This document shows positions 7,144 through 21,440 of a stretch of 35,704 bases of DNA, piece by piece. The translations under genes were made by a program, and so were the position numbers. Under the pieces are notes generated by a model. That model was not told the DNA's origin and did not search any database. It saw only the letters and a list, made by a program, of their open reading frames with translations. The stretch comes from Betaproteobacteria bacterium (lineage in GTDB: Bacteria > Pseudomonadota > Gammaproteobacteria > Burkholderiales > Rhodocyclaceae): positions 1 to 35,704 of the forward strand of contig JAGVUA010000102.1 in NCBI GenBank assembly GCA_019136545.1. Reading direction: 5' to 3'. Every line of letters begins with the position of its first letter. Positions within the stretch are counted from its first letter, which is position 1.

Positions 7144-7155
7144 CGGGAGCGTCCT

Positions 7156-7827
7156 TCATCGATTGGCAATCCGCCCCGGGGCAAGGCGCCCCGCGGACAA
7201 CAACACGACCACGCAAGCCATCGACGTGATGAGCACCAAGGTGGCGGCCAAGTCGTCCTGCCCCGCCTGCACGGCCTCGTACACCGCCACCGACAAGGTT
7301 TGCGTCTTGCCTGGAATACTTCCGGCGACCATCAGCGTCGCGCCGAACTCGCCCATGGCTCGCGCAAACGCCAGCAGCAGGCCGGCGAGAATCCCGCGCC
7401 AGGCCAGCGGCAAGGTCACGCGGAAAAACACGCCGACTTCCGACACGCCGAGCACGCGCGCGGCCTGCTCCAGTTGACCGTCGACCGCCTCGAAAGCGGC
7501 CCGGGCCGGCTTGAACACGAGCGGGAAGGCGACGATGCTGGCCGCGATCACCGCCCCCTGCCAAGTGAAGATCAGATTCACGCCCAGGCTCTCGCGCAAC
7601 CACGTGCCCAACCAGCTCTTGCGTCCGATCGCCACCAGCAGGTAGTAGCCGAGCACCGTCGGCGGCAGGACCATCGGCAGGGTGAGGAAGGTGTCGAGCA
7701 CGTCGCGGCCCGGGAAGCGCGCCCGCGCCAGCAGATAGCCGACGCCGACCCCGAGCACCAGGTTGATGAGTGTCGCCCAACCGGCGACTTTCAGGGACAG
7801 GCCGAGGGCCGTCCACGCGGGCTCCAT
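7156..7827 (-). CDS. modB: Molybdate ABC transporter permease
   Basis: 223 residues, the usual ModB length. About five to six membrane helices; the EAA coupling motif is the segment EQAARVLGVSEVGVFFRVTLP with the following GILAGLLLAFARAMGEFGAT, which is characteristic of ModB/CysU permeases. It forms the inner-membrane channel for the oxyanion delivered by ModA. The gene begins with ATG 18 bp after the modA stop and ends 12 bp before modC, within one operon. Confidence 0.93.
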   Translation of the reverse strand: MEPAWTALGLSLKVAGWATLINLVLGVGVGYLLARARFPGRDVLDTFLTLPMVLPPTVLGYYLLVAIGRKSWLGTWLRESLGVNLIFTWQGAVIAASIVAFPLVFKPARAAFEAVDGQLEQAARVLGVSEVGVFFRVTLPLAWRGILAGLLLAFARAMGEFGATLMVAGSIPGKTQTLSVAVYEAVQAGQDDLAATLVLITSMACVVVLLSAGRLAPGRIANR

Positions 7828-7845
7828 GCGTCTGGACTCCTTGCC

Positions 7846-8601
7846 TCACGGCTTCTGGAAGCCGTATTTGCCGAGAATCGCCTGTCCGGCAGGCGACAGG
7901 ACGTAGGCGACGAACTGGCGGGCTGCGTCGCCATGCGCGCTCCCCGCCAGCGTCGCGACCGGATAGGTGATGGCGACGTCCAGCGGCACATCCATGGCAA
8001 TCCGAACCTTGTCTTTCATCAGCGCCGCATCGGTGGCATAGACGAATCCCGCCTCGACTTCCCCGCGCGCCACGTAGTCGAGCGCCTGACGCACGGACTG
8101 GGCGCCGACCATCTTCGCCTCGACCATCGGCCAGAGATTCGCCGCCTCGAGCGCCCGCTTGGCATAGCGCCCGACCGGCACGCTGGCCGGGTTGCCGACC
8201 GCGACCCGCTTGACGGCCGCCTGGCCAAGATCGTTCAGCCGCTTGATCGTCGGTCCGCCGTCCGCCGGAACGATCACCACCAGCGCGTTGCGAGCGAAAT
8301 CTTGCCGATCCTGGGCGGCCACCAGGCCCTTTTTCTGGGCCAGATCCATGGTCTCCTGATCGGCGGAGGCGAACACGTCGACGGGCGCGCCCTTGTCCAT
8401 CTGCTGCAACAGGGCGCCCGATGCCCCGAAGTTCAGCAGAATCCGGGTGCCGGGACGCGCGGCTTCAAAGGCGCGCGCCACTTCGGTGAACGCGTTGGTC
8501 AGGCTGGCCGCCGCCGACACGGTGATCTCGCCCGCCGCCGCCGCGAAGGCGACGCCCGCCAGCGCCACTGCGCACAAACCATTGCGAATTCGTGATGCCA
8601 T
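7846..8601 (-). CDS. modA: Molybdate-binding periplasmic protein
   Basis: 251 residues. The signal peptide MASRIRNGLCAVALAGVAFA is cleaved around AAAAG-EITV. The mature start EITVSAAASLTNAF holds the first oxyanion-binding serines (AAASL), FGASGAL gives the second serine loop, and APVDVFASAD, VGNPASVPVGRYAK and the tyrosine-bearing VYATDA segment match the molybdate/tungstate-binding family. The ATG at 8601 has GAGGGG 7 nt upstream; longer in-frame starts would run through the promoter and the ModE-like box, so I reject them. First gene of the long uptake operon. Confidence 0.93.
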   Translation of the reverse strand: MASRIRNGLCAVALAGVAFAAAAGEITVSAAASLTNAFTEVARAFEAARPGTRILLNFGASGALLQQMDKGAPVDVFASADQETMDLAQKKGLVAAQDRQDFARNALVVIVPADGGPTIKRLNDLGQAAVKRVAVGNPASVPVGRYAKRALEAANLWPMVEAKMVGAQSVRQALDYVARGEVEAGFVYATDAALMKDKVRIAMDVPLDVAITYPVATLAGSAHGDAARQFVAYVLSPAGQAILGKYGFQKP

Positions 8602-8638
8602 CGATGACCCCTCGAAATCAAGTCGAGCCTTGAAAACC

Positions 8639-8670
8639 CGAAATATACGGTCTTGCATATCGCAATGCAA
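8639..8670 (-). promoter_or_regulatory. modA promoter with overlapping ModE-like box
   Basis: On the minus strand TTGCAT (8665-8670), a 17-nt spacer and TATATT (8642-8647) make a plausible sigma-70 promoter, with transcription starting near 8635. A 24-nt ModE-like element, CGATATGC, 8 nt, ATATTTCG (8639-8662), covers the spacer and -10, as expected for a repressor. It is weaker than the site at 6404-6427. A separate dyad TTGCAT, 6 nt, ATGCAA (8653-8670) overlaps the -35. Confidence 0.5.
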
Positions 8671-8758
8671 ACGAGGCATGCGCTCGCGCCGGTAGGGTGA
8701 CGCTGGTGGCACACCGTCAGGTCGTGCCGGCCGGCGCCTCCTGCCGCCCCGAAAGTCA

Positions 8759-8771
8759 GTCCCGGCGGGAC
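8759..8771 (-). terminator. Weak hairpin after the Ehr operon
   Basis: GTCCC and GGGAC pair around a 3-nt loop, 14 bp beyond the stop of the small-subunit gene. Only a short TTT follows on the transcript, so it is at best a weak terminator, separating the Ehr operon from modABC on the same strand. Confidence 0.3.
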
Positions 8772-8785
8772 GCCAAGCGCGGCCG

Positions 8786-9307
8786 TCAGGCGCGCCGGAC
8801 GGCGGCGAGGATGCCCTGCATCAGCGCCAGCGGCGTCGGCGGGCAGCCGGGTACGCGCACATCGACGGCGACGACGTTGTCGACCGGGCCGCAGGTGGCG
8901 TAGTTTTCGCCGAACAGCTGGCCGACCTCGCCGCAACCGCAGCCGCAATCGCCGACGGCGACCACCAGCTTGGGATCGGGCGTGCAGTCGTAGGCGATAC
9001 GCAGGGCGTTCTCCATGTTCTTGGTCACCGGACCGGTGACCAGCAGCATGTCGGCATGGCGCGGGCTGGCGACGAACTTGATGCCGCGCCCCTCGAGGTT
9101 GTAGTAGGCGTTGTTGAGGGCGTGGATTTCCAGCTCGCAGCCGTTGCAGGAACCGGCATCGACTTCGCGGATGGTCAGCGCCCGGCCGAGGATGCGCAGC
9201 AATTCGTCGTTGAGCCGTTCGATCTCCTGCCGGGGCCCGATGTCCACTTCTACCGCCGGCTCGGTGATAACGCCGGTGCGCAGGATCTTCTTCAGCAGCG
9301 GGATCAC
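8786..9307 (-). CDS. Ehr complex small subunit, NuoB/HyfI-like [4Fe-4S] protein
   Basis: 173 residues. The NuoB/HyfI-family cluster ligands are present: CNGC (C54, C57), a cysteine-rich GDCGCGCG segment (C121-C125) and PGCPP (C155), so the proximal [4Fe-4S] cluster should form. The GTG start overlaps the TGA of the large-subunit gene (GTGA), which fixes the start; the frame is open upstream but only antisense-like sequence lies there. Last gene of the operon. In this family the small subunit passes electrons between a ferredoxin-type donor and the catalytic or quinone site of the large subunit. No HyfH/NuoI-type ferredoxin subunit gene lies nearby, so the electron donor is unknown. Confidence 0.85.
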   Translation of the reverse strand: MIPLLKKILRTGVITEPAVEVDIGPRQEIERLNDELLRILGRALTIREVDAGSCNGCELEIHALNNAYYNLEGRGIKFVASPRHADMLLVTGPVTKNMENALRIAYDCTPDPKLVVAVGDCGCGCGEVGQLFGENYATCGPVDNVVAVDVRVPGCPPTPLALMQGILAAVRRA

Positions 9308-10884
9308 AGATCGACTCCAGAGTAGGAGAGATTGAACGACTTGTTGATCAGCGGAAAGTCGGGAACGATATCGTTCATCACGGCATGCTCGAGCGCCAGC
9401 CAGGCCTGCCACGATGGGTCGTGCGGGTGGACGCGGGCCAGGCGGCCGTCCGGCCCGATGCGTGCGCCGACGATGACTTCGCCGCGCCAGCCCTCGACCA
9501 CGCCGAGCCCGGTGGCGCCGGGGACGGGCGCGATCTCGACGCGCACGTCGCCCTCGGGCATGGCCACCGCCATTTCCTTGAGCAGGCGCAGCGACTCGAA
9601 GATCTCGTCGAAACGTACGGCGACGCGGGCGGCGACGTCGCCGCGTTCGTCGGTGGCCGGCCGCACGCCCAGCCGATCATAGGGCGGCGGCGGCGTGTAG
9701 CCCTGGCGGTAGCAACGGCCGCCGAGAATGAGGCCGGTCGCCCGCGCCGCCATGCCGGTCATCGACAACTCGCGCGCCAGCTCGGCCGTGATGGCGCCGG
9801 TGGTGAGGAAGCGGTCCTGCAGGCCGGAGTGCTCGTCGTAGAGGGCGCGCAAGGCCTTGACCTCGCGGCCGATGGCCTCGCACTGCTCGACGACCCGCCG
9901 CAGCGCCGTCGGATCGAGATCGCCGGCGACGCCGCCGGGGACGATGCGATCCATCATGAAGCGATGGCCGAACAACTCGGCATTGAGACGCAGCCAGTCT
10001 TCCTTGAGCCGCATGAACTGGGTCAGGCCGAAGGCGAAAGCGGCATCGTTGCCAAGCGCGCCGAGATCGCCGAGGTGATTGGCGATGCGCTCGCGCTCGA
10101 GCATGAAGGCGCGCAGCACGAGCGCGCGCGGCGGCGGCGCAACCCCGCAGGCGGCCTCGAGCGCCATGGCGTAGGCCCAGGCGTAAGCACAGGTGGCATC
10201 GCCGGAAACGCGGCCGATCAGCCTCGTCCCCGTGGCAAAGTCAGCCCCGGCGAGACGCCGTTCGACGCCCTTGTGCTGATAGCCCAGTCGCTCCTCGAGC
10301 CGCAGCACGCGTTCGCCGACCACGGAAAAACGGAAGTGGCCCGGCTCGATGATGCCGGCGTGGATGGGGCCGACCGGAATCTCGTGCGCGCCCTCGCCGC
10401 CGACCTGCACGAAATCGTAGTCGCTCGGCAGGTTGGGAAAACCGACGCCGACGCCCACTTCGTGCACCGAATCGTGGCGCAGCGGAAACCAGTCGGCCGG
10501 CCAGCCGCCGTGGCGCAGCCAGGGGCGCTGGTCGCCGCCGTCGCTGGCGATGCCGACCAGGTCGCGCGTCGCGCGCTGCATGCGGCTGGCGGCAGGGAAG
10601 ATGCCCGACAGGTCCGGATAGCTCGGGCACGCGTCGCCCTGCGCCGGCAGGTCGAGCGCTACCCAGACGTGGCCTTGGTTGATGCCGAAAACGCAATTGA
10701 GACGGAAACGCTCAGCCTCCCGCCGCCGGTCCTCGCCCCACAGCGCGGCGATGCGGCCGCCGGCGCCATGTACGGCGATGGCGAAGCGCAGCAGATCCTC
10801 GCCTTCGGCGATCTGGCCGAGCCAGACGGGGGCCCCGCAACCGGCCTGGGGCGTGAATTCGATCGGTTCGGCGTAGAAAAGCAT
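9304..10884 (-). CDS. Ehr complex large subunit, fused NuoC-NuoD/HyfG-like, no nickel ligands
   Basis: 526 residues. Residues 1-150 resemble the 30-kDa NuoC domain; from about 160 on it follows HycE/HyfG/NuoD (EIPVGPIHAGIIEPGHFRF at 168-186, LEERLGYQHKGVE at 197-209). In [NiFe] hydrogenases the next motif is RxCGxC; here it is RVSGDATCAY (225-234), as in complex I (GDSTVAH-like). The C-terminal DPCxxC motif is also missing; the protein ends NKSFNLSYSGVDL. So no NiFe centre can be bound and hydrogenase activity is not expected. This defines an energy-converting-hydrogenase-related (Ehr) complex. The ATG is 14 bp after the previous stop. It may oxidise or reduce a quinone or an unknown carrier. 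Confidence 0.85.
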   Translation of the reverse strand: MLFYAEPIEFTPQAGCGAPVWLGQIAEGEDLLRFAIAVHGAGGRIAALWGEDRRREAERFRLNCVFGINQGHVWVALDLPAQGDACPSYPDLSGIFPAASRMQRATRDLVGIASDGGDQRPWLRHGGWPADWFPLRHDSVHEVGVGVGFPNLPSDYDFVQVGGEGAHEIPVGPIHAGIIEPGHFRFSVVGERVLRLEERLGYQHKGVERRLAGADFATGTRLIGRVSGDATCAYAWAYAMALEAACGVAPPPRALVLRAFMLERERIANHLGDLGALGNDAAFAFGLTQFMRLKEDWLRLNAELFGHRFMMDRIVPGGVAGDLDPTALRRVVEQCEAIGREVKALRALYDEHSGLQDRFLTTGAITAELARELSMTGMAARATGLILGGRCYRQGYTPPPPYDRLGVRPATDERGDVAARVAVRFDEIFESLRLLKEMAVAMPEGDVRVEIAPVPGATGLGVVEGWRGEVIVGARIGPDGRLARVHPHDPSWQAWLALEHAVMNDIVPDFPLINKSFNLSYSGVDL

Positions 10885-10898
10885 GGCGGTTAGAACGA

Positions 10899-12344
10899 TT
10901 AGCCCAGCATGCGCGCGGCCTCGTGGAACCAGCGCGTCAGGTAAGGCGGAATGTAGAGGCCGAGCATCAGCACGATGGCCAGATGCACGAACACCGGGGT
11001 GATGGCGGGCGCGTGCGGCAACCGCTTGGCGTGCGTCTCGCCGAACACCATCGGCTGCACCTTGCCGAAGATGGAGGCGAAGGCCACGCCCAGCGCCAGC
11101 AGCAGGATCGGCGTTGTCCATGGGTAGTACTTCATGGCGTGGGTGAGGATCATGAACTCGCTGGCGAAAACGCCGAACGGCGGCATGCCGAGAATGGCCA
11201 GGGTGCCGAGCATCAGGCCCCAGCCGATCACCGGATTGATGCGGATCAGGCCGCGGATGTCGGCCATCATCTGCGTGCCGGCCTTCTGGGTGGCATGGCC
11301 GACGGCGAAGAAGATCGCCGACTTGGTCAGCGAATGCATGGTCATGTGCAGGAAGCCGGCGAAGTTGGCCACCGCGCCGCCCATGCCGAAGGCGAAGGTG
11401 ATCAGGCCCATGTGCTCGATCGACGAGTAGGCGAACATGCGCTTGATGTCTTTCTGCCGGCCGAGGAAAAAGGCGGCGAGCAGCAGCGTCAGCAGGCCGA
11501 AGCCCATCATCAGGTTGCCGGCGAATTCGCCTGGGATGGCGCCGTCGGCCAGCACCTTGCAGCGCAGGATGGCGTAGAGCGCAACGTTGAGCAGCAGGCC
11601 GGAAAGTACGGCGGAAACCGGCGTCGGGCCTTCGGCGTGGGCGTCGGGCAGCCAGTTGTGCAGCGGCGCCAGGCCGACCTTGGTGCCGTAGCCGACCAGC
11701 AGGAAGATGAACGCCAGCGCCATGATGGCCGGCTCCAGCTGGCCCCTGACGTCGACCAGATGGGTCCACAGCAGCGCGTTGCCCGCCTCGCCCAGCACGC
11801 GCTCGGCGGCGAAGTAGAGCAGGATGGTGCCGAACAGCGCCTGGGCGATGCCGACGCCGCAGAGGATGAAGTACTTCCAGGCGGCTTCGAGCGAAGCCGG
11901 CGTGCGGTAAAGCGAGACCAGCAGGACGGTGGTCAGCGTCGCCGCCTCCATGGCCACCCAGAGGATGCCCATGTTGTTGGTCGTCAGCGCCACCAGCATG
12001 GTGAACATGAACAGCTGGTACATGCTCTTGTAGAGCCGCAGGCGCGGAATCGAAAGGCGGCCGTGCGCCTGTTCGTTCCTCATGTAGGGGCCGGAGAAGA
12101 TGCTGGTGGTCATGCCGACGAAGGCGGTCAGCGCGACGAAGAAGACGTTCATCGAGTCGATGAAGAACTGTTCGCCAAAGGCGAAGCGAGGCCCCCGGGT
12201 AACGATTTCCATGGTCAACAGCGCCGAGGCGAGAAAAGTGCCGACGCTGGCGATGATGTTGAGATGAGGCGCCCAGGTTCGCTCGCCCGCCACCGTCAGC
12301 AGCGCGCCGCTGACGAGGGGAATGGCCAGGAGAATGACGAACAT
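10899..12344 (-). CDS. HyfF-like antiporter-type membrane subunit
   Basis: 481 residues with about 13-14 membrane helices. It contains the proton-translocation landmarks of the NuoL/M/N-MrpA/D family: a glutamate in ILWVAMEAATL and the lysine in GYGTKVGLAPLHNWLPDAH, followed by GPTPVSAVLSG. A further lysine-bearing segment DIKRMFAYSSIEHMG is typical. It would pump protons or sodium ions. I start at ATG 12344, 8 bp after the hyfE-like stop; a GTG two codons upstream is an alternative. It belongs to the six-gene Ehr set. Confidence 0.85.
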   Translation of the reverse strand: MFVILLAIPLVSGALLTVAGERTWAPHLNIIASVGTFLASALLTMEIVTRGPRFAFGEQFFIDSMNVFFVALTAFVGMTTSIFSGPYMRNEQAHGRLSIPRLRLYKSMYQLFMFTMLVALTTNNMGILWVAMEAATLTTVLLVSLYRTPASLEAAWKYFILCGVGIAQALFGTILLYFAAERVLGEAGNALLWTHLVDVRGQLEPAIMALAFIFLLVGYGTKVGLAPLHNWLPDAHAEGPTPVSAVLSGLLLNVALYAILRCKVLADGAIPGEFAGNLMMGFGLLTLLLAAFFLGRQKDIKRMFAYSSIEHMGLITFAFGMGGAVANFAGFLHMTMHSLTKSAIFFAVGHATQKAGTQMMADIRGLIRINPVIGWGLMLGTLAILGMPPFGVFASEFMILTHAMKYYPWTTPILLLALGVAFASIFGKVQPMVFGETHAKRLPHAPAITPVFVHLAIVLMLGLYIPPYLTRWFHEAARMLG

Positions 12345-12352
12345 GTCCACGC

Positions 12353-13021
12353 TCAGTCGTCCTTCAGATGTTCCATGTGGCTGATGTCCAGGCTGTCGAA
12401 CTGGTCGCGGATCTGGAAGAAGAAGACGCCGAGGATGATGACGCCGACCAGCACGTCGAGCGCGATGCCGAGTTCGACCACCATGGGCATGCCGTAGGTG
12501 GCGCTGGTGGCGGCGAGGAACAGGCCGTTCTCCATGGCCAGGAAGCCGACCACCTGCGGAATGGCCTTGGTGCGGGTGATCATCATCAGAAAGGCCAGCA
12601 TCACCGTCGCCAGCGCGATGCCGAGCGTGCCGCGGCTGATGGTGTGCGACAGCAGCGAGATCGGCTGGGCGACGTTGAAGGCGACGATGACCAGGGCGAT
12701 GCCGATCAGCATGGTGGTCGGCACGTTGACCAGCGATTCGACGTCCCACTTGACGTAGAGGCTGCGCACCAGCCGGTGCAGGATCCAGGGCAGCAGCATG
12801 GCCTTGAGCAGCAGGGTCAGGCCGGCCGACCAGTAGAGATGCGCCTGGTGGGTGGTGACGGCCACCACCAGCGTCGAACCGGCCAGCACCAGACCCTGGA
12901 ACCCGAACAGGTTGATCAGCGGCATGACGCGGCGCTGCGCCAGCATGGCGAATGCCAGCAGCAGAATCACCGCGGCGCAGAGATTGATGAGCTGGGCCGA
13001 AAGCGGGATGGTCGTGTTCAT
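12353..13021 (-). CDS. HyfE-like membrane subunit
   Basis: 222 residues with about six to seven membrane helices, matching the HyfE subunit of hydrogenase-4-type complexes, whose N-terminal part is related to NuoK/MrpC. The segment MITRTKAIPQVVGFLAMENGLFLAA carries the conserved glutamate expected in a NuoK-like helix. The ATG overlaps the previous TGA (ATGA). The stop lies 8 bp before the hyfF-like start. Role: part of the ion-conducting membrane arm. Confidence 0.8.
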   Translation of the reverse strand: MNTTIPLSAQLINLCAAVILLLAFAMLAQRRVMPLINLFGFQGLVLAGSTLVVAVTTHQAHLYWSAGLTLLLKAMLLPWILHRLVRSLYVKWDVESLVNVPTTMLIGIALVIVAFNVAQPISLLSHTISRGTLGIALATVMLAFLMMITRTKAIPQVVGFLAMENGLFLAATSATYGMPMVVELGIALDVLVGVIILGVFFFQIRDQFDSLDISHMEHLKDD

Positions 13022-13965
13022 GCGCGAATTTCGAGGAGCAGGCGGACCAGCAGCCCGAGCACCGCCAGCAGGAAGGCGGTGCCGAGAAATTCGGGTGCGC
13101 GGAAGATGCGCATTTTGGCGTTGACGGTCTCGATCGTCGCCAGCAGGAAGCCGCCGATGCCCAGCTTCACCAGCAGCAGCGGCACGGCGGCGACCATGGC
13201 CAGAACGTTGTCGCGCTCGGCGATGCCCCAGGGGAAGAACAGCGCCAGGCCGAGACAGGAATAGGCGTAGAGCTTGAGGCTGGCCGCCCATTCGATCAAG
13301 GCGAGATGGCGGCCCGAATATTCGAGGATCATCGCCTCGTGAATCATGGTCAATTCGAGATGGGTGGCCGGGTTGTCCACCGGCACGCGCGCGTTCTCGG
13401 CCAGCGAGACGAAGGTGAAGGCGATGCCGGCGAAGGCGAGGCTCGGATAGATGACGATGTCGCGGTGCGCCAGCGTTTCGACGATGGTCGCCACCGAGGT
13501 CGACTGCGAGATCATCGCCGTGGTGAAAATGACCATCAGCAGCGCCGGCTCGGCCAGGAAGCCGACCAGCATCTCGCGCCGGCCGCCCAGGCTGCCGAAC
13601 GAGGTGCCGACATCCATGGCCGCCAGCGAGATGAAAATGCGCGCCAGCCCGAACACGCCGACCAGCGCCAGCGTGTCGGCGGCCGGCGCGAACGGCAGGT
13701 CGGTGGACAGGCTGGGGATGATGGCGCAGGCCAGCAGCATGCAGCCGAACACCACGAACGGCGCGGTGCGGAACAGCGGCGAGGCGTTGTGCGCCAGCAC
13801 CACGTCCTTGCGGAACAGCTTGTGCAGCATGTAGTAGGGCTGGAACAGCGGCGGCGCCGAGCGGCTCTGCAGCCAGGCGCGGCACTGGTTCACCCAGCCG
13901 GTGAGCAGCGGCGCCAGCGCCAGTGCCAGCAGAATGGCGAACAACTGGCCGAGGAGCCCCGTCAT
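13018..13965 (-). CDS. HyfC/NuoH-like membrane subunit
   Basis: 315 residues with about eight membrane helices. The conserved loops of the NuoH/HycD/HyfC family are recognisable: PPLFQPYYMLHKLFRKD, SLAAMDVGTSFGSLGGRRE, and the acidic stretch ARVPVDNPATHLELTMIHEAM that faces the quinone-like cavity in complex I. This subunit joins the peripheral NuoB/NuoCD-like arm to the membrane arm. Both ends overlap neighbours by 4 nt (ATGA), showing tight translational coupling. Confidence 0.85.
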   Translation of the reverse strand: MTGLLGQLFAILLALALAPLLTGWVNQCRAWLQSRSAPPLFQPYYMLHKLFRKDVVLAHNASPLFRTAPFVVFGCMLLACAIIPSLSTDLPFAPAADTLALVGVFGLARIFISLAAMDVGTSFGSLGGRREMLVGFLAEPALLMVIFTTAMISQSTSVATIVETLAHRDIVIYPSLAFAGIAFTFVSLAENARVPVDNPATHLELTMIHEAMILEYSGRHLALIEWAASLKLYAYSCLGLALFFPWGIAERDNVLAMVAAVPLLLVKLGIGGFLLATIETVNAKMRIFRAPEFLGTAFLLAVLGLLVRLLLEIRA

Positions 13966-15971
13966 GGCCTGGCCACCAGCAGCAGGACGATCAGGGTCAG
14001 GAAGCTGTACATCAGATACACGGCGATGCGGCCGCCCTGCACGCGCACGATCAGACCGGCGACGCGATCGACCAGCACCGCGATCGGCAGGTAGAGCCAG
14101 TACCAAAAATGGTCCTCGACCTTGACGGTGTAATAGGGCCGGTCGTCGCGGGCGGTGGGGAAGTGGCGCGCCATGCGGAACACCGGCTCGAAGATGCGGC
14201 GGATCGGCTGCGAAAAGCCCTCGGCGGTGTCCTGTGCGCGCGGACTACCGAAGAAGTAGCCGCAGTCCCACGCCCGCGAGCGGCGCACGCGACCATGGTA
14301 GAGGCGGCGAACCAGCCAGCGGCCGAGCAGCACCGAGGCGACGATGGTGACCAGGAACACCAGCGGCTGGTAGCTGGCGCGGTCCTCGGAGATCGGCGCC
14401 AGCATCCACCAGCCCGACTCGTGCACCCGCGCGGCCAGCCCGGTGCCGAGCAGCTGGGTGGTGGCCGCGTCGAGCAGGCCGATCACCGTCGACGGTATCA
14501 CGCCGAGCAGCAGGGTCAGCAAAGTCAGCCATGACAGGCCGCCGCGCTCCCAGGGTCCGGCGTCATGGGCCTCCTCGAGGGCGGGCTCGCGCATCTGGCC
14601 GAGGAAAATGATGCCGTAGAACTTGACCATGGCGAAGCCGGCCAGCGCCGCCACCAGCGCGATCACCGCCGCCGCCACCGGCACCACCATGTTGAGCCAG
14701 GGATGCGGCAGCCCGGGCGAAAACAGGAACGCCTGCAGGAGCAGCCACTCGGAAACGAAGCCCGACAGCGGCGGCAGGCCGGCGCTGGCGATGACGCCGG
14801 CCAGCGCCAGCCAGGCCACCCAGGGCATGCGGTGGATCAAGCCGCCGAGCTTGCCGAGACTGCGCTCCTTGGTCGCATGCAGCACCGAGCCGGTGCACAG
14901 GAACAGCAGGCTCTTGAAGCCGGCGTGGGCCAGGCAGTGATAAAGCACCGCCGTCATCGCGAGCGCCGCCAGCGTCTCCATGCCGAAGGAATGGAAGATC
15001 AGCGTCAGGCCGATGCCCACCGCCAGCAGGCCGATGTTCTCGATCGACGAGTAGGCCAGCAGCCGCTTCATGTCCGACTGCACGGTGGAATACAGGACGC
15101 CGAACAGGGCCGTGATCAGGCCGACGGTCATCGCCACCACGCCCCACCACCAGAGCGGCGTGCCGACCAGGTCGAAACTCACCCGCAGCAGGCCGTAGAT
15201 GGCGGTCTTGAGCATGACGCCGGACATCATCGCCGACACCGGCGAGGGCGCCGCCGGGTGCGCTTCCGGCAGCCAGACATGCACCGGCACCAGGCCGGCC
15301 TTGGCGCCGAAGCCGACCAGCGCCAGCAGGAAGGCGGCCGAGGCCCAGAACGGCGACAGTTCCTGCGCGCGCATGCCGGCGAAGGTGTAGTCGCCGCTGC
15401 CCGAGGTCATGATGCCGAAGGCGAGCAGGATGGCGATGGCGCCGACATGGGCGATCAGCAAATAGAGGTAGCCGGCACTGCGGATGGCTTCGTGGCGGTG
15501 ATCGGTCGTGACGAGGAAGAACGACGACAGCGCCATGACTTCCCAGGCCACCATGAAGGCATAGGCGTCGTCGGCCAGCAGCACCATGAGCATGCTGGCG
15601 AGAAAGACGTGGTATTCGAGGCAGAGCAAGCCGGGCGCCGTGCCCTCGCCCTTGCGGAAATAGCCGGCGGCGTAAATCGAGATGCCGAACGAAGCGAAGC
15701 CCAGCAGCAGCGCGAAGACGGCGGCGAGGTTGTCGAGCCGCAGATGAAAAGGCAGCGTCGGCAGGCCGATGGCGAGCACGGCGGTTTCGGCGGACTGGCC
15801 AAGATAACCGAGCGACGTCACGCCGACCGCCAGCCCGATCAGCGCGCCGAGCGGAAAAAGCACCTTGGCGATGAAGCGCGTGTTGCGGGGCGCCGCCAGG
15901 CCCGACAGACCGACCGCCAGCCAGGCGCTGGCGGCGATCAGCAGGAAATCCATGGCGAGCAGGCTGGGCAT
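13962..15971 (-). CDS. HyfB/NuoL-like antiporter-type membrane subunit
   Basis: 669 residues with about 16 membrane helices. Proton-path landmarks are the glutamate in FMVAWEVMALSSFF, the lysine in GFGAKAGLVPVHVWLPEAH and the AAPSPVSAMMSG turn; DMKRLLAYSSIENIG follows. The C-terminal soluble-looking stretch CGYFFGSPRAQDTAEGFSQPIRRIFEP is typical of HyfB/HycC. The ATG at 15971 has no clear Shine-Dalgarno; an in-frame ATG six codons downstream (MDFLLIAAS) is an alternative. The gap to the sulP stop is only 29 bp, so this gene and the five following Ehr genes are probably cotranscribed with sulP. Confidence 0.85.
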   Translation of the reverse strand: MPSLLAMDFLLIAASAWLAVGLSGLAAPRNTRFIAKVLFPLGALIGLAVGVTSLGYLGQSAETAVLAIGLPTLPFHLRLDNLAAVFALLLGFASFGISIYAAGYFRKGEGTAPGLLCLEYHVFLASMLMVLLADDAYAFMVAWEVMALSSFFLVTTDHRHEAIRSAGYLYLLIAHVGAIAILLAFGIMTSGSGDYTFAGMRAQELSPFWASAAFLLALVGFGAKAGLVPVHVWLPEAHPAAPSPVSAMMSGVMLKTAIYGLLRVSFDLVGTPLWWWGVVAMTVGLITALFGVLYSTVQSDMKRLLAYSSIENIGLLAVGIGLTLIFHSFGMETLAALAMTAVLYHCLAHAGFKSLLFLCTGSVLHATKERSLGKLGGLIHRMPWVAWLALAGVIASAGLPPLSGFVSEWLLLQAFLFSPGLPHPWLNMVVPVAAAVIALVAALAGFAMVKFYGIIFLGQMREPALEEAHDAGPWERGGLSWLTLLTLLLGVIPSTVIGLLDAATTQLLGTGLAARVHESGWWMLAPISEDRASYQPLVFLVTIVASVLLGRWLVRRLYHGRVRRSRAWDCGYFFGSPRAQDTAEGFSQPIRRIFEPVFRMARHFPTARDDRPYYTVKVEDHFWYWLYLPIAVLVDRVAGLIVRVQGGRIAVYLMYSFLTLIVLLLVARP

Positions 15972-16000
15972 GACGGTGGCGTAGTCAGTCCGCCATTGTA

Positions 16001-18121
16001 TCAGCCGACCGCGAGCATATTGTCCGGTCGCAAGGCATCGGCCTCGGCATGGCCGGCCCGTGCGTAGATGGCCGTCAGCGCCTGATCGGCGGTGGCGAAA
16101 ATATTGGCCTGGGTGATGACGTCGAACAGTCCGGTGGCGCGCATGACGTCGATCACCTGCTTCTTCAGGCCGGAGAAGACCACGGTGACCCCGTTGCCGC
16201 GCAGGCGGTCGACGATGTGGTGCACCACTTCCTCGCCGGAGGCATCCATCTCGTTGACGCCGTCGGCGACGATCAGCAGGAAAGGCGCTTTCGGATTGGC
16301 GGCGACGGCCTCGAGGATGGCGTCCTCGAAGTAGGACACGTTGGCGAAATACAGGCGGCCGTCGAAGCGCACGGCGGTCACCACGTCCGATGCGGGCAGG
16401 CTGTTCACCTTGGCGTCGCGCAGCGTGCCGTCGTGGTAGCGGCCGAGGATGGCGACGCGCGGCGACATGGTGCGGTAGAGATAAAGGCCGATGGCCAAGC
16501 CGGCGCCGACGAGGATGCCGTTGTCCAGATGCGGTGCGAAGCCGAGCGTGGCCAGGAAGGTGACGACCGCGGCGATGCCGTCGTGCCGGTTGGCCTGCCA
16601 GGCATGCTTGACGGCGGCCACGTTGATCAGGCCGATCACCGCCATGATGATCACCGCCGCCAGCACCGCCTGCGGCAGATGGTAAAGCAGCGGCGTGAGG
16701 AACAGCAGCGTCAACAGCACCAGCAGCCCGGTGAACACGGAAGACATGCCGGTCGCGGCGCCGGCGTTGATATTGACCGCCGAACGCGAAAACGAGCCCG
16801 ACACCGGAAACGCCTGCGTGAGGCTGCCGACGATGTTGGCCAGGCCCTGGCCGATCAGCTCCTGGTTGGGGTCGATCCGCTGCTTGGTCTTGGCGGCGAT
16901 CGCCTTGGCGATCGAGATGGCCTCCATGAAACCGACCAGCGAGATGACCAGCGCCGCCGAAAGCAGGCTGCCGATCATGTCCCAGGAGATCTTCGGCAGG
17001 CCGAAGCGCGGCAGGCCCTCGGGAATCCGGCCCACCACTTCGCCGCCACCGGCAAGCTTGCTGGTCTTGCCGGGACGAACGATGCGCCAGCGCGTGCCCT
17101 CGGTGGCGACGCCCGGCGGCACTCTGCCCACCGCATGGAAGCGCGGCGCGCCGCCATCGCTGACTTTGGCGCGTTCGAAGACGATGCTGCGGATGGCCCG
17201 GTTGCGCCGCCGGTTTTCGTCCTCGCGGTCCTTGATCTGCAGCTTCAGCAGCTCCAGCTCATAGTTCAAGGTCGCGTCCTCGCGCCCATGCTCGCCACCG
17301 GCTTTCTGCAGCGCCTGCAATTCGCCGCTCTTGGCGACGATCTGGTCGCCGATGTCCTTGATCCGTTCATCGGTGCGGGCGTATTCGACGAGCAGCGCGT
17401 TCGCTTCGGCGTCGCCGATCTGGTCGATGGTCGCGGTGTCGTTCCGCTCGAAGCCGATCAGCCACGAGGCGATGGTCGTCACCAGGACGGCGATCAGCAC
17501 GCCCGGCCACTTCGGCCGATACCTGCGGACGAGCCCCATGATGGCGATCGCCACCACGCCCATCGCCAGGGTCGGCCAATGCGTGTCGTCGAGCTGGCGG
17601 AAGACGCCGGCGATATCCTGGATGAAATGCTCGGAACGGCCCATCGGCACGCCGATCAACTTGTTCACTTGCGACAGGGCGATGATCATGGCGGCAGCGT
17701 TGGTGAAACCGACGATCACGGGGTGCGACAGGAAGTTGACGATGATGCCGAGCTTGAACGCACCGAGAAACAGCTGAAACGCGCCGACCATGAGCGCCAA
17801 CATCACCGCCAGCGTGATGAAATGTTCCGAGCTCGGCGCCGCCAGCGGCGCCAGGCTCGAAGCCGTCAGCAGCGACACCACGGCCACCGGACCGGTACCC
17901 AGCTGGTCGGACGAACCCCACAGCGCAGCGACCATCACCGGCAGGAAAGCCGCATACAGGCCGTAGTAGGCCGGCAGGCCGGCGAGCTGCGCGTAGGCCA
18001 TGGACTGCGGCACCAGCACCAGCGCCACGGTCAAGCCGGCCAGCAGGTCGGCCTTGACGGTCGCGCCGTTGAAGGGCAGCCAGCGCAGGAAGGGCAGCAG
18101 GGCGCGCGGCGAAATATTCAC
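16001..18121 (-). CDS. SulP-family anion transporter with coiled-coil insertion and STAS domain
   Basis: 706 residues. The N-terminal SulP core is clear (DLLAGLTVALVLVPQSMAYAQLAGLPAYYGLYAAF, residues 25-59), with a GFTNAAAMIIALSQV helix; the transport domain resumes with a VGFMEAISIAKAIA helix and a SGSFSRSAVN turn. Between them residues 225-378 are an extra, charged, helix-rich segment (heptad-like LELLKLQIKDREDENRRRN) with no counterpart in short SulP proteins. A STAS domain ends the protein (about 570-690). SulP members move sulfate, bicarbonate, molybdate or other anions, usually with sodium or protons; the substrate here is unknown. The GTG start overlaps the Usp stop (GTGA) and the Ehr genes follow 29 bp downstream. 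Confidence 0.88.
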   Translation of the reverse strand: MNISPRALLPFLRWLPFNGATVKADLLAGLTVALVLVPQSMAYAQLAGLPAYYGLYAAFLPVMVAALWGSSDQLGTGPVAVVSLLTASSLAPLAAPSSEHFITLAVMLALMVGAFQLFLGAFKLGIIVNFLSHPVIVGFTNAAAMIIALSQVNKLIGVPMGRSEHFIQDIAGVFRQLDDTHWPTLAMGVVAIAIMGLVRRYRPKWPGVLIAVLVTTIASWLIGFERNDTATIDQIGDAEANALLVEYARTDERIKDIGDQIVAKSGELQALQKAGGEHGREDATLNYELELLKLQIKDREDENRRRNRAIRSIVFERAKVSDGGAPRFHAVGRVPPGVATEGTRWRIVRPGKTSKLAGGGEVVGRIPEGLPRFGLPKISWDMIGSLLSAALVISLVGFMEAISIAKAIAAKTKQRIDPNQELIGQGLANIVGSLTQAFPVSGSFSRSAVNINAGAATGMSSVFTGLLVLLTLLFLTPLLYHLPQAVLAAVIIMAVIGLINVAAVKHAWQANRHDGIAAVVTFLATLGFAPHLDNGILVGAGLAIGLYLYRTMSPRVAILGRYHDGTLRDAKVNSLPASDVVTAVRFDGRLYFANVSYFEDAILEAVAANPKAPFLLIVADGVNEMDASGEEVVHHIVDRLRGNGVTVVFSGLKKQVIDVMRATGLFDVITQANIFATADQALTAIYARAGHAEADALRPDNMLAVG

Positions 18122-18534
18122 GGCGCGTCCTTTCCGGGCGGCGCGGCCGTCACGAGGGGGCAGGCGAGCTTGGCCCAGGGATTGGCAGCCCGATCCTCGG
18201 CGACGCTTTCCCAGCCTGCGAGCGAGTCGATGACGACGGTGACGACGCATTCGTGAGTGTTGGCGTACTGGACGATGTCCCGCCGGCGCAACTGGGTTTT
18301 CTGCGTCAGCGAGTACATCACGCCCGCCGCGCGCAGGTCGCGCACCAGCGCTGCCACCTCGGCCGGAAGCGCACTGCCCGCGGCCAGCAGGAGAATGTCC
18401 AGTTCCGCGTCCAGCCGCTGGCACAGGCTGCGCGCCGAGTTCAACAAGCGCGGGTCGAGGTGCCCTTCGCGAATGGCGAGGAGCACCTTGCGTTCAACCG
18501 CCGCGCGCGGCGCGTGTGCTTGTTTGGCAACCAT
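18118..18534 (-). CDS. UspA-like protein leading the SulP-Ehr operon
   Basis: 138 residues. The fold pattern VLLAIREGHLDPRLLNSARSLCQRLDAELDILLL matches the first half of universal stress proteins; the C-terminal ATP-binding G-x2-G-x9-G motif is not evident, so it may be a non-ATP-binding type. The ATG has AGGGGG about 7 nt upstream. It overlaps the sulP start by 4 nt, so a direct regulatory partnership with the transporter is plausible (the other SulP in this window carries two Usp domains fused to it). Confidence 0.65.
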   Translation of the reverse strand: MVAKQAHAPRAAVERKVLLAIREGHLDPRLLNSARSLCQRLDAELDILLLAAGSALPAEVAALVRDLRAAGVMYSLTQKTQLRRRDIVQYANTHECVVTVVIDSLAGWESVAEDRAANPWAKLACPLVTAAPPGKDAP

Positions 18535-18643
18535 GGACTGAGCCCCCTCGCAGTTTCCGGGCCACCGGGGATCTGCTCGGGCAAGCGTTTGATCGCATGG
18601 GCAATTCGCTCGCGCCCGGCCCTCACACCAGCAGGCGCAAGCA

Positions 18644-18747
18644 TTGCATTACGCAGCGGCTCGGTGGCGTCGATGGCGATTTGACGCTTTCCTGACAGCG
18701 ATTGCCTCCGATGTTGCGCGACACGCGCAAGGCGTTGCATAATGCAA
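18644..18747. promoter_or_regulatory. Divergent promoter region with dyads and TTGCATnAtGCA repeats
   Basis: The 238-bp gap between the divergent usp and kinase genes holds TTGCATTACGCA (18644-18655), TTGCATAATGCA (18735-18746, extending to a TTGCAT-A-ATGCAA dyad), and a perfect dyad TTGCGCG-ACA-CGCGCAA (18714-18730). For the kinase, TTGCGC (18714-18719), 18 nt and CATAAT (18738-18743) are a possible promoter, so the two dyads would cover its -35 and -10. I found no convincing sigma-54 promoter. Confidence 0.4.
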
Positions 18748-18772
18748 TAATTTCGGCAACGGCTCTTCCGAC

Positions 18773-20095
18773 ATGCGTTCACTGCGCTGCAAGATCACCA
18801 TTGGCCTCTCGCTCATCGCCATCCTGGTCGTCGGGCTGGCGCTGTTTTCCTATCTGGAATTGCGCCGCGCGCAAGCGCAGATCGTCGCCGGCGCGCACGT
18901 CACCGAATTCCTGAACGTCGCCCTCGAAATCCGGCGCTTCGAAATGAATTACTTTCTTTTCGGCCAGGCGCAGGACCTCGTCGAGAACCAGGCGTACATC
19001 GACCGCGCACGCGCGCTGCTTCGCGACCATGCCGCCGCTTTCGAGGCCGTCGGCGACCGTGCCGAACTCGAGCGGCTGACCGGCGACCTCGATCGGTACG
19101 GGCTGCTGATTGCCGAGCTGACGAAAGGCGGCGGCAAAATCTCGGCGGACGAAATCCGCCAGGTCGACAAGAACATCGTCAGCCGGGCGGAAACCATGGC
19201 CGATACCGAGCGCAAGGTGCTGCAGGCCCTGCTCTGCCGGCACCGCCATCTGCTCATCGGTGCCGCGGTCGGCGTCGCGCTCCTGGTGGTGGCGATCGTC
19301 GCCATGCTCACGCCCGCCTTCAACCTCGTCATCCGTCAGCTGGAAACGCGCCAGCGGCAGCTGCTGCGCTCGGAGAAGCTGGCAGCGCTCGGCACGCTGC
19401 TGTCGGGCGTCGCCCACGAGATCAACAATCCGCTGTCGAACATTTCCACGTCCTGCGAAATCCTCGCCGAGGAAGTCAGCCGTGGCGGCACGCCGTTCGA
19501 GAAGGAGTTGCTGCAACAGATCGACGCCGAGACCTGGCGCGCGCGGCGCATCGTGCGCTCGCTGCTCGACTACGCGCGCGACCGCGACTTCAAACGCGAA
19601 ACGCAGCCGCTGGCGGCGTTGGTCGAAGACACTCTGCGCCTGATCCGCGGCCGCATTCCGGCCGAGGTGCACGTGGCCGTGGCGGTGCCCGCCGACCTGA
19701 CCGTCAGCGGCGACCGCCAGCGGCTGCAGCAGATGCTGCTGAATCTGGTCGGCAACGCGCTGGCGGCGCTCGGCAGCGTCGGCGACATCGACATCGCGGC
19801 CAGGCCGGCCGGCGCGCAGCCGGCCGGCGCACTGGTGTTCGGCCAATGTCTGGAGGCGGTCGCCAGCGTCGAACTCGTCGTTCGCGACAACGGCCCCGGC
19901 ATTCCGGCGGACATCCTGCCCCGCATCTTCGACCCCTTCTTCACCACCAAGGAGGTTGGCAAGGGGCTGGGGCTCGGGCTGTTCATCGTCTTTGAAATCG
20001 TCGAGGAGCATGGCGGCTGCATCGCCGTCGACAGCGAAACAGGCCGGGGCACCACCTTCCGGGTCCGCCTGCCCGTGGGAGAGAACAATGTCTAA
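18773..20095 (+). CDS. Membrane sensor histidine kinase paired with an NtrC-type regulator
   Basis: 440 residues. Two membrane helices (about 8-28 and 160-182) enclose a mostly helical periplasmic sensor of about 130 residues. The phospho-acceptor box is SGVAHEINNPLSN with H215; the ATPase domain has N-box NLVGNALAAL, G1 DNGPGIP, F-box PFFTTK, G2 GKGLGLGLF and a GRGTTF G3 turn. The type resembles NtrB/ZraS-like kinases that act on sigma-54 activators. No HAMP or PAS domain is obvious. The gene overlaps the regulator by 8 bp and diverges from the usp-sulP-Ehr operon, which is a likely target. The signal is unknown; an oxyanion or cell-envelope cue is possible. Confidence 0.88.
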   Translation: MRSLRCKITIGLSLIAILVVGLALFSYLELRRAQAQIVAGAHVTEFLNVALEIRRFEMNYFLFGQAQDLVENQAYIDRARALLRDHAAAFEAVGDRAELERLTGDLDRYGLLIAELTKGGGKISADEIRQVDKNIVSRAETMADTERKVLQALLCRHRHLLIGAAVGVALLVVAIVAMLTPAFNLVIRQLETRQRQLLRSEKLAALGTLLSGVAHEINNPLSNISTSCEILAEEVSRGGTPFEKELLQQIDAETWRARRIVRSLLDYARDRDFKRETQPLAALVEDTLRLIRGRIPAEVHVAVAVPADLTVSGDRQRLQQMLLNLVGNALAALGSVGDIDIAARPAGAQPAGALVFGQCLEAVASVELVVRDNGPGIPADILPRIFDPFFTTKEVGKGLGLGLFIVFEIVEEHGGCIAVDSETGRGTTFRVRLPVGENNV

Positions 20096-21440
20096 GGGAA
20101 GAGTGTTGATCGTGGACGACGAGAAGGTCGCCGTCCGCAACCTCGAACACGTGATGAAGAAAGAGGGCTACGACGTCGTCGCCACCCAGAGCGGCGGCAA
20201 TGCGCTGGCCCATCTCGAGAAGCAGGCCTTCGACGTCGTGCTGACCGACCTGCGCATGGAGAAGGTCGACGGCATGCAAGTGCTGCAGCGCTGCCGCGAC
20301 ACCTGCCCCGATACCGAAGTCGTGCTGATCACCGGCTACGCGACGCTGGAATCCGCGGTCGAAGCCATGAAGAACGGCGCCTATTACTACATCGCCAAAC
20401 CCTTCCGCCTCGACGAGGTGCGCAAGGTGGTCGCCGAGGCCATGGAGAAGGTGCGGCTGCGGCGCGAGAACCGCAGCCTGCGCGAGCAGGTGGAAGATTT
20501 CCAGGGCAAGGTGCGCATCATTACCCAGGACGCAGGCATACAGCGCCTGCTCGACCTGGCGCGCCAGGTCGCGCCGACCGACTGCAACGTGCTGATCACC
20601 GGCGAATCGGGGACCGGCAAGGAGCTGTTCGCCCAGTACCTGCACCATCACAGCCGGCGCCAGAACGGCCCTTTCCTGGCCATCAACTGCGGCGCCTTCA
20701 ACGAGGAACTGCTCGCCAACGAACTCTTCGGCCACGTCCGAGGGGCCTTCACCGGCGCCAACGCGGACAAGAAGGGCCTGCTGGTGGCAGCCGACGGCGG
20801 CACGCTGTTCCTCGACGAGATCACCGAGATGTCGCCGGCGATGCAGGTGAAACTGCTGCGCGCGATCCAGGAGAACGAGCTGCTGCCGCTCGGCGCCACC
20901 GCGCCGATCAAGGTGGATATCCGCTTCGTCGCCGCCACCAACCGCGATGTCCAGGAGATGGCGAAGCGCGGCGAATTTCGCCAGGACCTCTGGTTCCGGC
21001 TCAACGTGGTGAACCTGCACATTCCCGCGCTGTCGAAGCGGCGCGAGGATATTCCCCTCCTCGCCTACCACTTTCTCGCCAAGTCCGCCGCGCGCATGGG
21101 GAAACCGGTGACCGAAATCGCCGCGGACGCGATGGGCATCCTCAAGGCCTACGACTTCCCCGGCAACGTGCGCGAACTGGAAAACATCGTCGAGCGCGGC
21201 GTCGCCATCGCCACCGGCAATGCCATCGAAACCGCCCATCTGCCCGACGACCTGCGCGAGCTGTCGATCCGCACCTTCCGCAAGAAGGAAGGCCGCCTGC
21301 CCTCGCTCGACGAACAGGAGCGCGACTACATCCAGTGGGTCCTGCAGGAGGCCGGCGGCAACCAGACGCTGGCCGCGCAGATTCTCGGCATCGACCGGGT
21401 ATCGCTGTGGCGCAAGCTGAAACGCTACCAGATGGAGTAA
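20088..21440 (+). CDS. NtrC-family sigma-54-dependent response regulator
   Basis: 450 residues. Receiver domain 1-120 with acceptor D54 (VVLTDLRM) and K103 (AKPF); AAA+ domain with Walker A GESGTGKE (171-178), the sigma-54-contacting loop GAFTGA (218-223), Walker B-like GGTLFLDEI, and an arginine-finger region; Fis-type helix-turn-helix at the C-terminus (NQTLAAQILGIDRVSLWRKLKRY). It would activate sigma-54 promoters after phosphorylation by the overlapping upstream kinase. The start ATG lies inside the kinase 3' end (20088-20090). No clear -24/-12 promoter was found in the adjacent divergent region, so its targets are not settled. Confidence 0.93.
   Translation: MSKGRVLIVDDEKVAVRNLEHVMKKEGYDVVATQSGGNALAHLEKQAFDVVLTDLRMEKVDGMQVLQRCRDTCPDTEVVLITGYATLESAVEAMKNGAYYYIAKPFRLDEVRKVVAEAMEKVRLRRENRSLREQVEDFQGKVRIITQDAGIQRLLDLARQVAPTDCNVLITGESGTGKELFAQYLHHHSRRQNGPFLAINCGAFNEELLANELFGHVRGAFTGANADKKGLLVAADGGTLFLDEITEMSPAMQVKLLRAIQENELLPLGATAPIKVDIRFVAATNRDVQEMAKRGEFRQDLWFRLNVVNLHIPALSKRREDIPLLAYHFLAKSAARMGKPVTEIAADAMGILKAYDFPGNVRELENIVERGVAIATGNAIETAHLPDDLRELSIRTFRKKEGRLPSLDEQERDYIQWVLQEAGGNQTLAAQILGIDRVSLWRKLKRYQME

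Follow-up and report, generated by a model that had tools for sequence, protein, structure and literature searches.

Linkage of a SulP anion transporter to an Ehr complex in a member of the Rhodocyclaceae, and its probable relation to inorganic carbon uptake

The stretch of DNA analysed here (the window) consists of 35,704 nucleotides of contig JAGVUA010000102.1, assembly GCA_019136545.1, from a betaproteobacterium of the family Rhodocyclaceae. It carries an operon, usp-sulP-hyfBCEFGI, in which a Usp-like gene and the gene for a SulP anion transporter are followed by the genes for an energy-converting hydrogenase-related (Ehr) complex. The pairing of SulP with Ehr is real and common to several families, and gene order and phylogeny show that it has arisen anew or disappeared more than once. 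In sister taxa the same SulP is followed by a cluster encoding DabA, a component of known inorganic carbon pumps. The operon therefore probably serves the uptake of inorganic carbon, with SulP importing bicarbonate and Ehr acting as an ion-translocating partner in the slot otherwise filled by Dab proteins. Because SulP-Ehr adjacency recurs and sister taxa carry Dab relatives behind the same SulP, a contribution of Ehr to inorganic carbon uptake is suggested.

Direct inspection of coordinates and junctions reveals one tight unit on the minus strand, with the following features:

18118..18534, minus strand: usp-like gene, 138 aa, first gene of the operon
16001..18121, minus strand: sulP, 706-aa SulP/SLC26 anion transporter with a STAS domain
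17048..17446, minus strand: insertion within SulP, about residues 226-358, a predicted helical hairpin plus a small beta part (model, pLDDT 77.9)
15972..16000: gap of 29 bp between sulP and hyfB
13962..15971, minus strand: hyfB, antiporter-like membrane subunit, kin of HycC, MbhH, MrpA and NuoL (NF005086, 885.3 bits)
13018..13965, minus strand: hyfC, NuoH-like membrane subunit (PF00146, 124.4 bits)
12353..13021, minus strand: hyfE, small membrane subunit (NF008556, 94.6 bits, below the cut-off of 136)
10899..12344, minus strand: hyfF, second antiporter-like subunit (NF005045, 851.7 bits), ATG start, with a GTG at 12350 possible
9304..10884, minus strand: hyfG, NuoCD/HycE-like large subunit without nickel ligands (PF00329 and PF00346)
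8786..9307, minus strand: hyfI, NuoB/MbhJ-like small subunit (PF01058), cysteines of one [4Fe-4S] cluster kept

This layout agrees in its coordinates with the original prediction, which had described a 4-nt overlap of usp and sulP, a 29-bp gap, and six Ehr genes on the same strand with further overlaps. The usp/sulP overlap reads GTGA. Overlaps of 4 nt also occur at hyfB/hyfC, hyfC/hyfE and hyfG/hyfI, and hyfC, E, F, G and I are spaced by overlaps or gaps of a few bases. The original prediction had further held that a strong promoter or terminator splitting sulP from hyfB would refute it. A simple scan found no terminator-like or sigma70-like promoter site in the 29-bp gap; two minus-strand terminator-like sites do occur near the junction, and both are intragenic (16504-16487 in sulP, 15879-15860 in hyfB). 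Over positions 8500-18900 the same scan gave 16 terminator-like sites, against 5.8 expected from shuffled sequence.

Ehr complexes are kin of the group 4 [NiFe]-hydrogenases, and their function is called unknown in the excerpts of the literature used here (e.g., PMC4378227). Within the window, HyfB and HyfF exceed the cut-offs of the hydrogenase-4 B and F models, and HyfB was aligned to the antiporter region of HycC and MbhH (7z0s_C, E 1.2e-59). The HyfG profile finds its best match in subunit 5 of formate hydrogenlyase (7z0s_E, E 2.7e-81), followed by MBH (6cfw_L, 1.1e-42). The nickel ligands of HyfG are gone: RVCGIC and DPCYSC of 7z0s_E (HycE) are replaced by RVSGDS and NLSYSG, and C238 of the window's protein aligns with a non-ligand position. 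The C-terminal block of HyfG is nearly invariant across 11 aligned sequences. A large subunit without nickel cysteines, a small subunit with [4Fe-4S] cysteines, and antiporter-like and NuoH-like subunits are the features of Ehr complexes, and all are found here. A group 4 [NiFe]-hydrogenase was rejected as an identity because both the L1 and the L2 nickel ligands are absent from HyfG. The nickel-less Ehr complex first proposed for these genes is thus upheld by the missing ligands and by the subunit set hyfBCEFGI. Group 4 [NiFe]-hydrogenases have a ferredoxin-like electron-entry subunit of the HyfH type; no gene of this type lies in the window's tight unit, the rest of the genome not having been searched.

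Six-gene Ehr clusters are known from Sulfobacillus (PMC4378227) and Acidithiobacillus (PMC6002666), and Ehr is also treated in PMC10284858. The motif given for the Acidithiobacillus complex, SGD[TS][TS][AV][GA]Y (PMC6002666), fits several of the aligned HyfG sequences (SGDSTVAY), whereas the window's HyfG differs from it, with SGDATCAY and, in addition, NLSYSGVDL. The loss of the nickel cysteines is shared with the described Ehr complexes; the window's Ehr is additionally tied to SulP, to the Usp-like gene and to an NtrC-type regulatory pair. Elsewhere, two Ehr operons were seen face to face in a single genome (L164:329-18953; L numbers are fetched loci and G numbers genomes in this analysis), one of them divergent (43-63% identity).

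The adjacency of SulP and Ehr was followed in two samples. The first comprised the window's genome and 60 relatives, 61 genomes in all; a HyfG match at E <= 1e-100 was found in 24 of them, and 28 stretches around HyfG matches were collected (L034-L061). SulP lies directly before hyfB in L035, L036, L038, L039, L042, L052 and L142, the last being a longer stretch of L034. The upstream side of hyfB ends at contig ends in L044 and L057, and the other upstream neighbours are metG, a GGDEF gene or other genes (named by eye). The second sample was a SulP scan of one genome per species across 84,980 species, from which the best 80 loci were analysed. Ehr lies directly downstream of SulP in 22 of these best 80 relatives (L062-L074, L077, L079-L081, L084, L085, L089, L096 and L111; L065 and L038 are from the same genome, G005). 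The families named for the Ehr-linked loci are Rhodocyclaceae, Sterolibacteriaceae, Sulfuricellaceae and Thiobacillaceae. The original prediction had proposed looking for conserved adjacency in other genomes and had named confinement to very close relatives as a result that would refute it; the recurrence of the adjacency in these four families answers both points. Chance or purely local adjacency was also rejected on the evidence of these loci and of the two trees described below.

The pairing does not extend to the class as a whole. A class-wide draw of 369 genomes contained Ehr in 44 (E <= 1e-60), this type of SulP in 14 (E <= 1e-200) and both in 3; SulP and Ehr are adjacent only in the window's own genome and lie more than 1 Mb apart in the other two. 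The proposal that Ehr accompanies SulP throughout the class was rejected on these counts. Because co-occurrence is rare in this draw, the pairing is best described as a trait of several related families and not of Ehr generally. Among the Ehr loci unlinked to SulP, L055 has an open reading frame (ORF) resembling, by eye, the C subunit of ammonia/methane monooxygenase about 1.0-1.75 kb upstream of hyfB. A scrap of sulP lies upstream of the unlinked Ehr of L041 (13003-13278) and another directly before the Dab cluster of L163 (7598-7852), which suggests loss of sulP.

A DabA cluster stands behind the same SulP in 8 of the best 80 relatives (L082, L083, L086, L087, L088, L090, L094 and L105), with a weaker ninth case in L129. 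Behind SulP, the Dab-type order is a NuoM-like protein, DabA and then, where the contig allows, further antiporter-like proteins. DabA was matched in 9/9 SulP-Dab genomes, with Pfam scores of 749 bits in L090 and 791.9 bits in L086. Both of these loci carry an extended Dab cluster directly behind SulP (L090:12222-21625 and L086:12141-21438), consisting of a DabA of about 1100 aa and four antiporter-like proteins. The original prediction had been reminded of DabA/DabB by the layout of the window, and the parallel turns out to be a literal one, since in sister taxa the same SulP cassette leads into a DabA cluster.

DabA (PF10070) is absent from the window's operon and gave no match in the window's genome, which is 94.8% complete. 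It was found in one of the 29 SulP-Ehr genomes (G441, with a DabA 30% identical to that of L090), and Ehr in one of the 9 SulP-Dab genomes. A further genome, G013, has Ehr without SulP and the SulP scrap directly before a Dab cluster mentioned above (L163). Strict mutual exclusion of Ehr and DabA was therefore rejected, both being present in G441, G451 and G013. A second contig (L168:1-7851) of G451, which is also the source of L083, carries the end of a dabN4-like gene and then, after about 170 bp, hyfBCEFGI. This arrangement apparently fits a single sulP-dab-ehr locus with Dab and Ehr in tandem.

Phylogenetic trees indicate that these partnerships have changed repeatedly. The SulP tree (FastTree) has 103 rows, of which 28 are linked to Ehr, 9 to Dab, 62 to neither (including second SulP copies of the same loci) and 4 are cut; the duplicate L065 was dropped, and L042, whose SulP aligns in two pieces, is not in the tree. 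Given its starred branches, the Ehr label must have changed at least 7 times and the Dab label at least 6. The partners interleave, with L084 (Ehr) and L090 (Dab) as sisters, and the clustering of the Dab label scarcely exceeds that of shuffles (17/500 as low). On the Ehr tree (quick IQ-TREE, 54 rows), the 29 SulP-linked rows fall in four places: a Rhodocyclaceae clade holds 19 of them along with 3 unlinked rows, L111 stands by itself in a clade otherwise unlinked, L052 groups with L074, and the remaining 7 come from Thiobacillaceae. SulP linkage changes 7 times on this tree, at least 6 of the changes being forced, and none of 500 shuffles was as low. L111 combines an Ehr from an unlinked clade with a SulP of the Rhodocyclaceae type; L084 has an Ehr of the main Ehr clade and a SulP outside the main SulP clade. 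These conflicting positions argue that transporter and complex have been exchanged. The view that SulP and Ehr belong together, put forward for the window alone, is strengthened by recurrence in four named families, by the several gains or losses that the trees need, and by the exchange with Dab.

The carriers of SulP-Ehr are mostly sulfur-oxidising, RuBisCO-bearing bacteria. RuBisCO was matched in 28/29 SulP-Ehr genomes (some matches being fragments), and the sole miss is a 1.8 Mb genome. It is also present in 9/9 SulP-Dab genomes and in 3/3 genomes with an unlinked Ehr of the same clade. Genomes with an Ehr of other clades have RuBisCO in 6 of 13 cases, counting G030 and G047, where contig ends hide the region upstream of hyfB; the difference between 28/29 and 6/13 gives p = 4e-4, uncorrected for kinship. 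Among other genomes of the window's family the figure is 15/30, again without correction for kinship. In the window's genome RuBisCO stands beside cbbQ-, cbbO- and cbbR-like genes and a phosphoribulokinase-like ORF (the kinase named by eye), and its identity of 33% to the form I enzyme of G050 is the reason for assigning it to form II (form names by eye).

Carbon genes also occur close to the transporter. The SulP-Ehr genes of G050 are followed by a carbonic anhydrase-like gene (CsoSCA_cat, 30.8 bits, cut-off 21.5), then about 5 kb further on by cbbR and cbbLSQO, and then by a beta-carbonic anhydrase (several names by eye). A carbonic anhydrase-like gene is found no more than about 0.7 kb beyond hyfI in L052, L069, L073 and L079; in L087 and L088 it comes immediately after dabN4, and L067 and L105 have it too. 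Genes for the handling of dissolved inorganic carbon (DIC) were found in the fetched stretch of 24 of the best 80 SulP loci, 19 with genes other than dabA and 5 with dabA alone (counting a weak beta-carbonic anhydrase match in L141; L093 and L097, and L100 and L101, have much sequence in common), and at 0/25 unlinked Ehr loci. Examination of 20 neighbour proteins from 25 other SulP loci revealed an LCIB-type carbonic anhydrase (26.3 bits against a cut-off of 25, thus marginal), SulP and SbtA close together in L097 (8722-14105), with RuBisCO genes further on. L114 has SbtA and a BMC-domain protein near SulP, L075 a further SulP, and L126 a DmsC-like protein beside SulP; the remaining proteins had no evident bearing or no family.

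A regulatory pair diverges from the operon, and putative regulatory sites lie between them:

18773..20095, plus strand: histidine kinase, divergent from usp (HisKA and HATPase_c)
20085..21440, plus strand: NtrC-family sigma54-dependent response regulator (Response_reg, Sigma54_activat and HTH_8)
18735..18747: palindrome TTGCATAATGCAA, 13 bp, proposed binding site of the NtrC-type regulator
18549..18564, minus strand: sigma54-type -24/-12 site before usp, weak (9/12 fixed bases; 9 reached by 191/3000 random stretches)

NtrC orthologues stand beside both Ehr-type and Dab-type SulP genes and are mostly 70-85% identical (L065 63%, L087 60%, L094 61%). The relaxed palindrome TTGCN5GCAA, present in the window, occurs in the 400 bp before usp in 17/19 usp-bearing loci: 15/16 of the Ehr type (including L040, which has Ehr and has lost SulP) and 2/3 of the Dab type. 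Elsewhere in the usp-bearing loci there are 4 copies in 319,542 bp. Sites resembling the sigma54 consensus at 10 or more of 12 bases occur in 12/20 usp regions, compared with 31/3000 random stretches; two relatives reach only 4. These data point to a regulator and palindrome shared by Ehr-type and Dab-type loci. The usp orthologues likewise precede loci of both types. As to the label "Usp-like" itself, profile searches at 1e-3 found no Pfam or NCBIfam family for the window's protein, and three orthologues gave no Usp profile match, whereas the top fold matches of its AlphaFold model (pLDDT 80.4) are Usp proteins, weakly matched (E 2.5e-4, TM about 0.5).

Neighbouring parts of the window hold further genes of related kinds. 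ORFs resembling modABC (named by eye) occupy 6442-8712 on the same strand, immediately 3' of hyfI, and a second copy of the relaxed palindrome, TTGCATATCGCAA, lies at 8653-8665 near the start of the modA-like ORF. A second SulP with a STAS domain and a fused stretch with Usp domains is encoded at 24354-26909 on the plus strand, and its homologues occur near several other SulP-Ehr loci.

The SulP of the operon matches PF00916, with a C-terminal STAS domain, and scores 435.9 bits with TIGR00815, above the cut-off. In the predicted model, its insertion of about 130 residues separates one half of the membrane domain from the other. An Ehr-linked SulP lacks the whole insertion in frame (L042:7578-9290), and the insertion is thus dispensable for the pairing with Ehr. 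SulP E400 aligns with Glu347 of AtSULTR4;1 (positions taken from the alignment), a residue required for proton-driven transport, and BicA and SLC26Dg have an acid at the equivalent position (PMC8298490). SulP residues Q39, Y43, S445 and R446 align with sulfate-site residues of AtSULTR4;1. The match of both E400 and the sulfate site to AtSULTR4;1, together with the acid shared by BicA and SLC26Dg, makes these residues compatible with cation symport and uninformative as to bicarbonate or sulfate.

In the model that we favour, the substrate of SulP, the direction of ion flow, contact between SulP and Ehr, and the chemistry of Ehr are all inferred. The divergent kinase/NtrC pair probably switches on usp-sulP-hyfBCEFGI. 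Bicarbonate would enter through SulP by cation symport, E400 being at the coupling-acid position of the SLC26 family. Ehr, which takes the slot held in sister taxa by the DabA/NuoL-like pump, is a complex-I-like assembly with antiporter-like subunits and one iron-sulfur cluster; it would move H+ (or Na+) across the membrane in which SulP resides, most likely as the energy partner of this uptake. It could either charge the gradient spent by SulP or admit protons consumed by the fixation of bicarbonate.

Several observations weigh against this model. The window itself gave no match to the carbon-gene queries, and DIC genes were found in the fetched stretch of only 5/22 SulP-Ehr loci among the best 80 and 1/7 of the others (L052). 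Upstream of SulP, no copy of the palindrome turned up in 17 loci that lack usp; three of these, L035, L082 and L142, had just 539-841 bases of sequence to scan. The change counts come from fast tree methods and cannot separate gain from loss. The score of SulP with the BicA model (NF050096) is 137.1 bits against a cut-off of 880, which does not exclude bicarbonate transport, and its sulfate-site residues match those of AtSULTR4;1, as noted above. Ehr is found in the absence of SulP as well, and 7 genomes that have it lack a RuBisCO match; its core chemistry is thus not specific to inorganic carbon.

The main rival substrate is sulfate, or sulfite: SulP might carry one of these in the course of sulfur oxidation, for instance by moving sulfate formed in the cytoplasm by the Apr pathway out of the cell, with Ehr supplying or using the ion gradient. 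The link to RuBisCO would then be indirect, since these bacteria are both sulfur oxidisers and autotrophs. A match to AprA, an enzyme of sulfur oxidation, in 25/29 SulP-Ehr genomes (28/32 searched, 23/32 over the cut-off) speaks for this and against bicarbonate, as do the binding residues and the presence of aprA at 4 of the best 80 SulP loci, one of them SulP-Ehr (L089). The DmsC-like gene beside SulP in L126 also speaks for sulfate. However, four SulP-Ehr genomes without an AprA match (G430, G433, G437 and G438) all have RuBisCO, and the 4 loci with aprA compare with 19 carrying DIC genes other than dabA and the 5 with dabA alone. Sulfur metabolism offers no evident explanation for the exchange with DabA. 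Sulfate is a live rival, albeit rather an unlikely one. It is less likely still that the operon is one regulon and not one machine, an NtrC-type signal inducing an anion carrier together with an energy module, each with its own separate task in the cell. The evidence for their association is gene order, a shared regulator and co-inheritance, and both Ehr and DabA also occur without this SulP nearby. Yet the adjacency persists where no NtrC orthologue was found in the fetched stretch and no palindrome in the 1.5 kb before SulP (L062, L063, L066, L068, L069, L070, L072 and L073), and the pairing has changed several times on the trees.

Two further proposals concern the function of Ehr. Ehr could be an electron-transport complex working with a separate dehydrogenase such as formate dehydrogenase, SulP merely balancing charge. 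A pairing of formate dehydrogenase with Ehr has been proposed for Riflemargulisbacteria and Saganbacteria (PMC6349859), and the modABC-like ORFs just downstream in the window would suit it. This we consider very unlikely: the tight six-gene unit has no dehydrogenase or ferredoxin-like gene (formate dehydrogenase elsewhere in the genomes was not searched for), and the window's modA, used as a tblastn query, matched only L060 among the fetched loci. Alternatively, Ehr itself might be an inorganic carbon pump, a third complex-I-derived kind beside DAB and the cyanobacterial NDH-1 type. Proton flow through HyfB and HyfF would drive the hydration of CO2 in one direction, or the loading of bicarbonate, in the pocket of HyfG that nickel has vacated, and SulP would supply bicarbonate alongside. 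This is an improbable proposal; if true, the orphan Ehr family would gain a function.

The proposed uptake of inorganic carbon by SulP with Ehr as its partner can be set beside several known systems. The DAB/DAC pumps, consisting of DabA and the NuoL-like DabB, resemble the window's arrangement in linking complex-I-like channel proteins to inorganic carbon and in their position behind the SulP cassette; they differ in that the window has no DabA and that Ehr adds NuoH-, NuoCD- and NuoB-like parts. The cyanobacterial NADH-dehydrogenase-type CO2-uptake complexes are another case of complex-I-like machinery serving inorganic carbon uptake. In contrast to this NDH-1 type, which is mentioned in PMC10880623, Ehr belongs to the hydrogenase-4 lineage. 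On the transporter side, the carboxysome-linked SulP of Thiomicrospira pelophila (SulP-CS) raised inorganic carbon in E. coli, while another SulP gave no rescue (PMC12628692). BicA and SulP-CS share with the window's protein the SulP fold with STAS, and related SulPs adjoin RuBisCO genes, SbtA and carbonic anhydrase. The window's SulP differs in its insertion (missing from L042) and in scoring far below the BicA cut-off. No report of a SulP-Ehr link was found in searches of the open-licence literature (matches including PMC12342949, PMC4378227, PMC13144422, PMC12628692, PMC10880623 and PMC6002666), subscription literature being mostly outside this scope.

Ehr complexes are common, as their presence in 44 of the 369 sampled genomes of the class indicates. 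The recurrent exchange of Ehr and DabA behind one transporter and one regulator gives Ehr a specific role that experiments can address, and suggests that autotrophs that oxidise sulfur have a new arrangement for carbon uptake.

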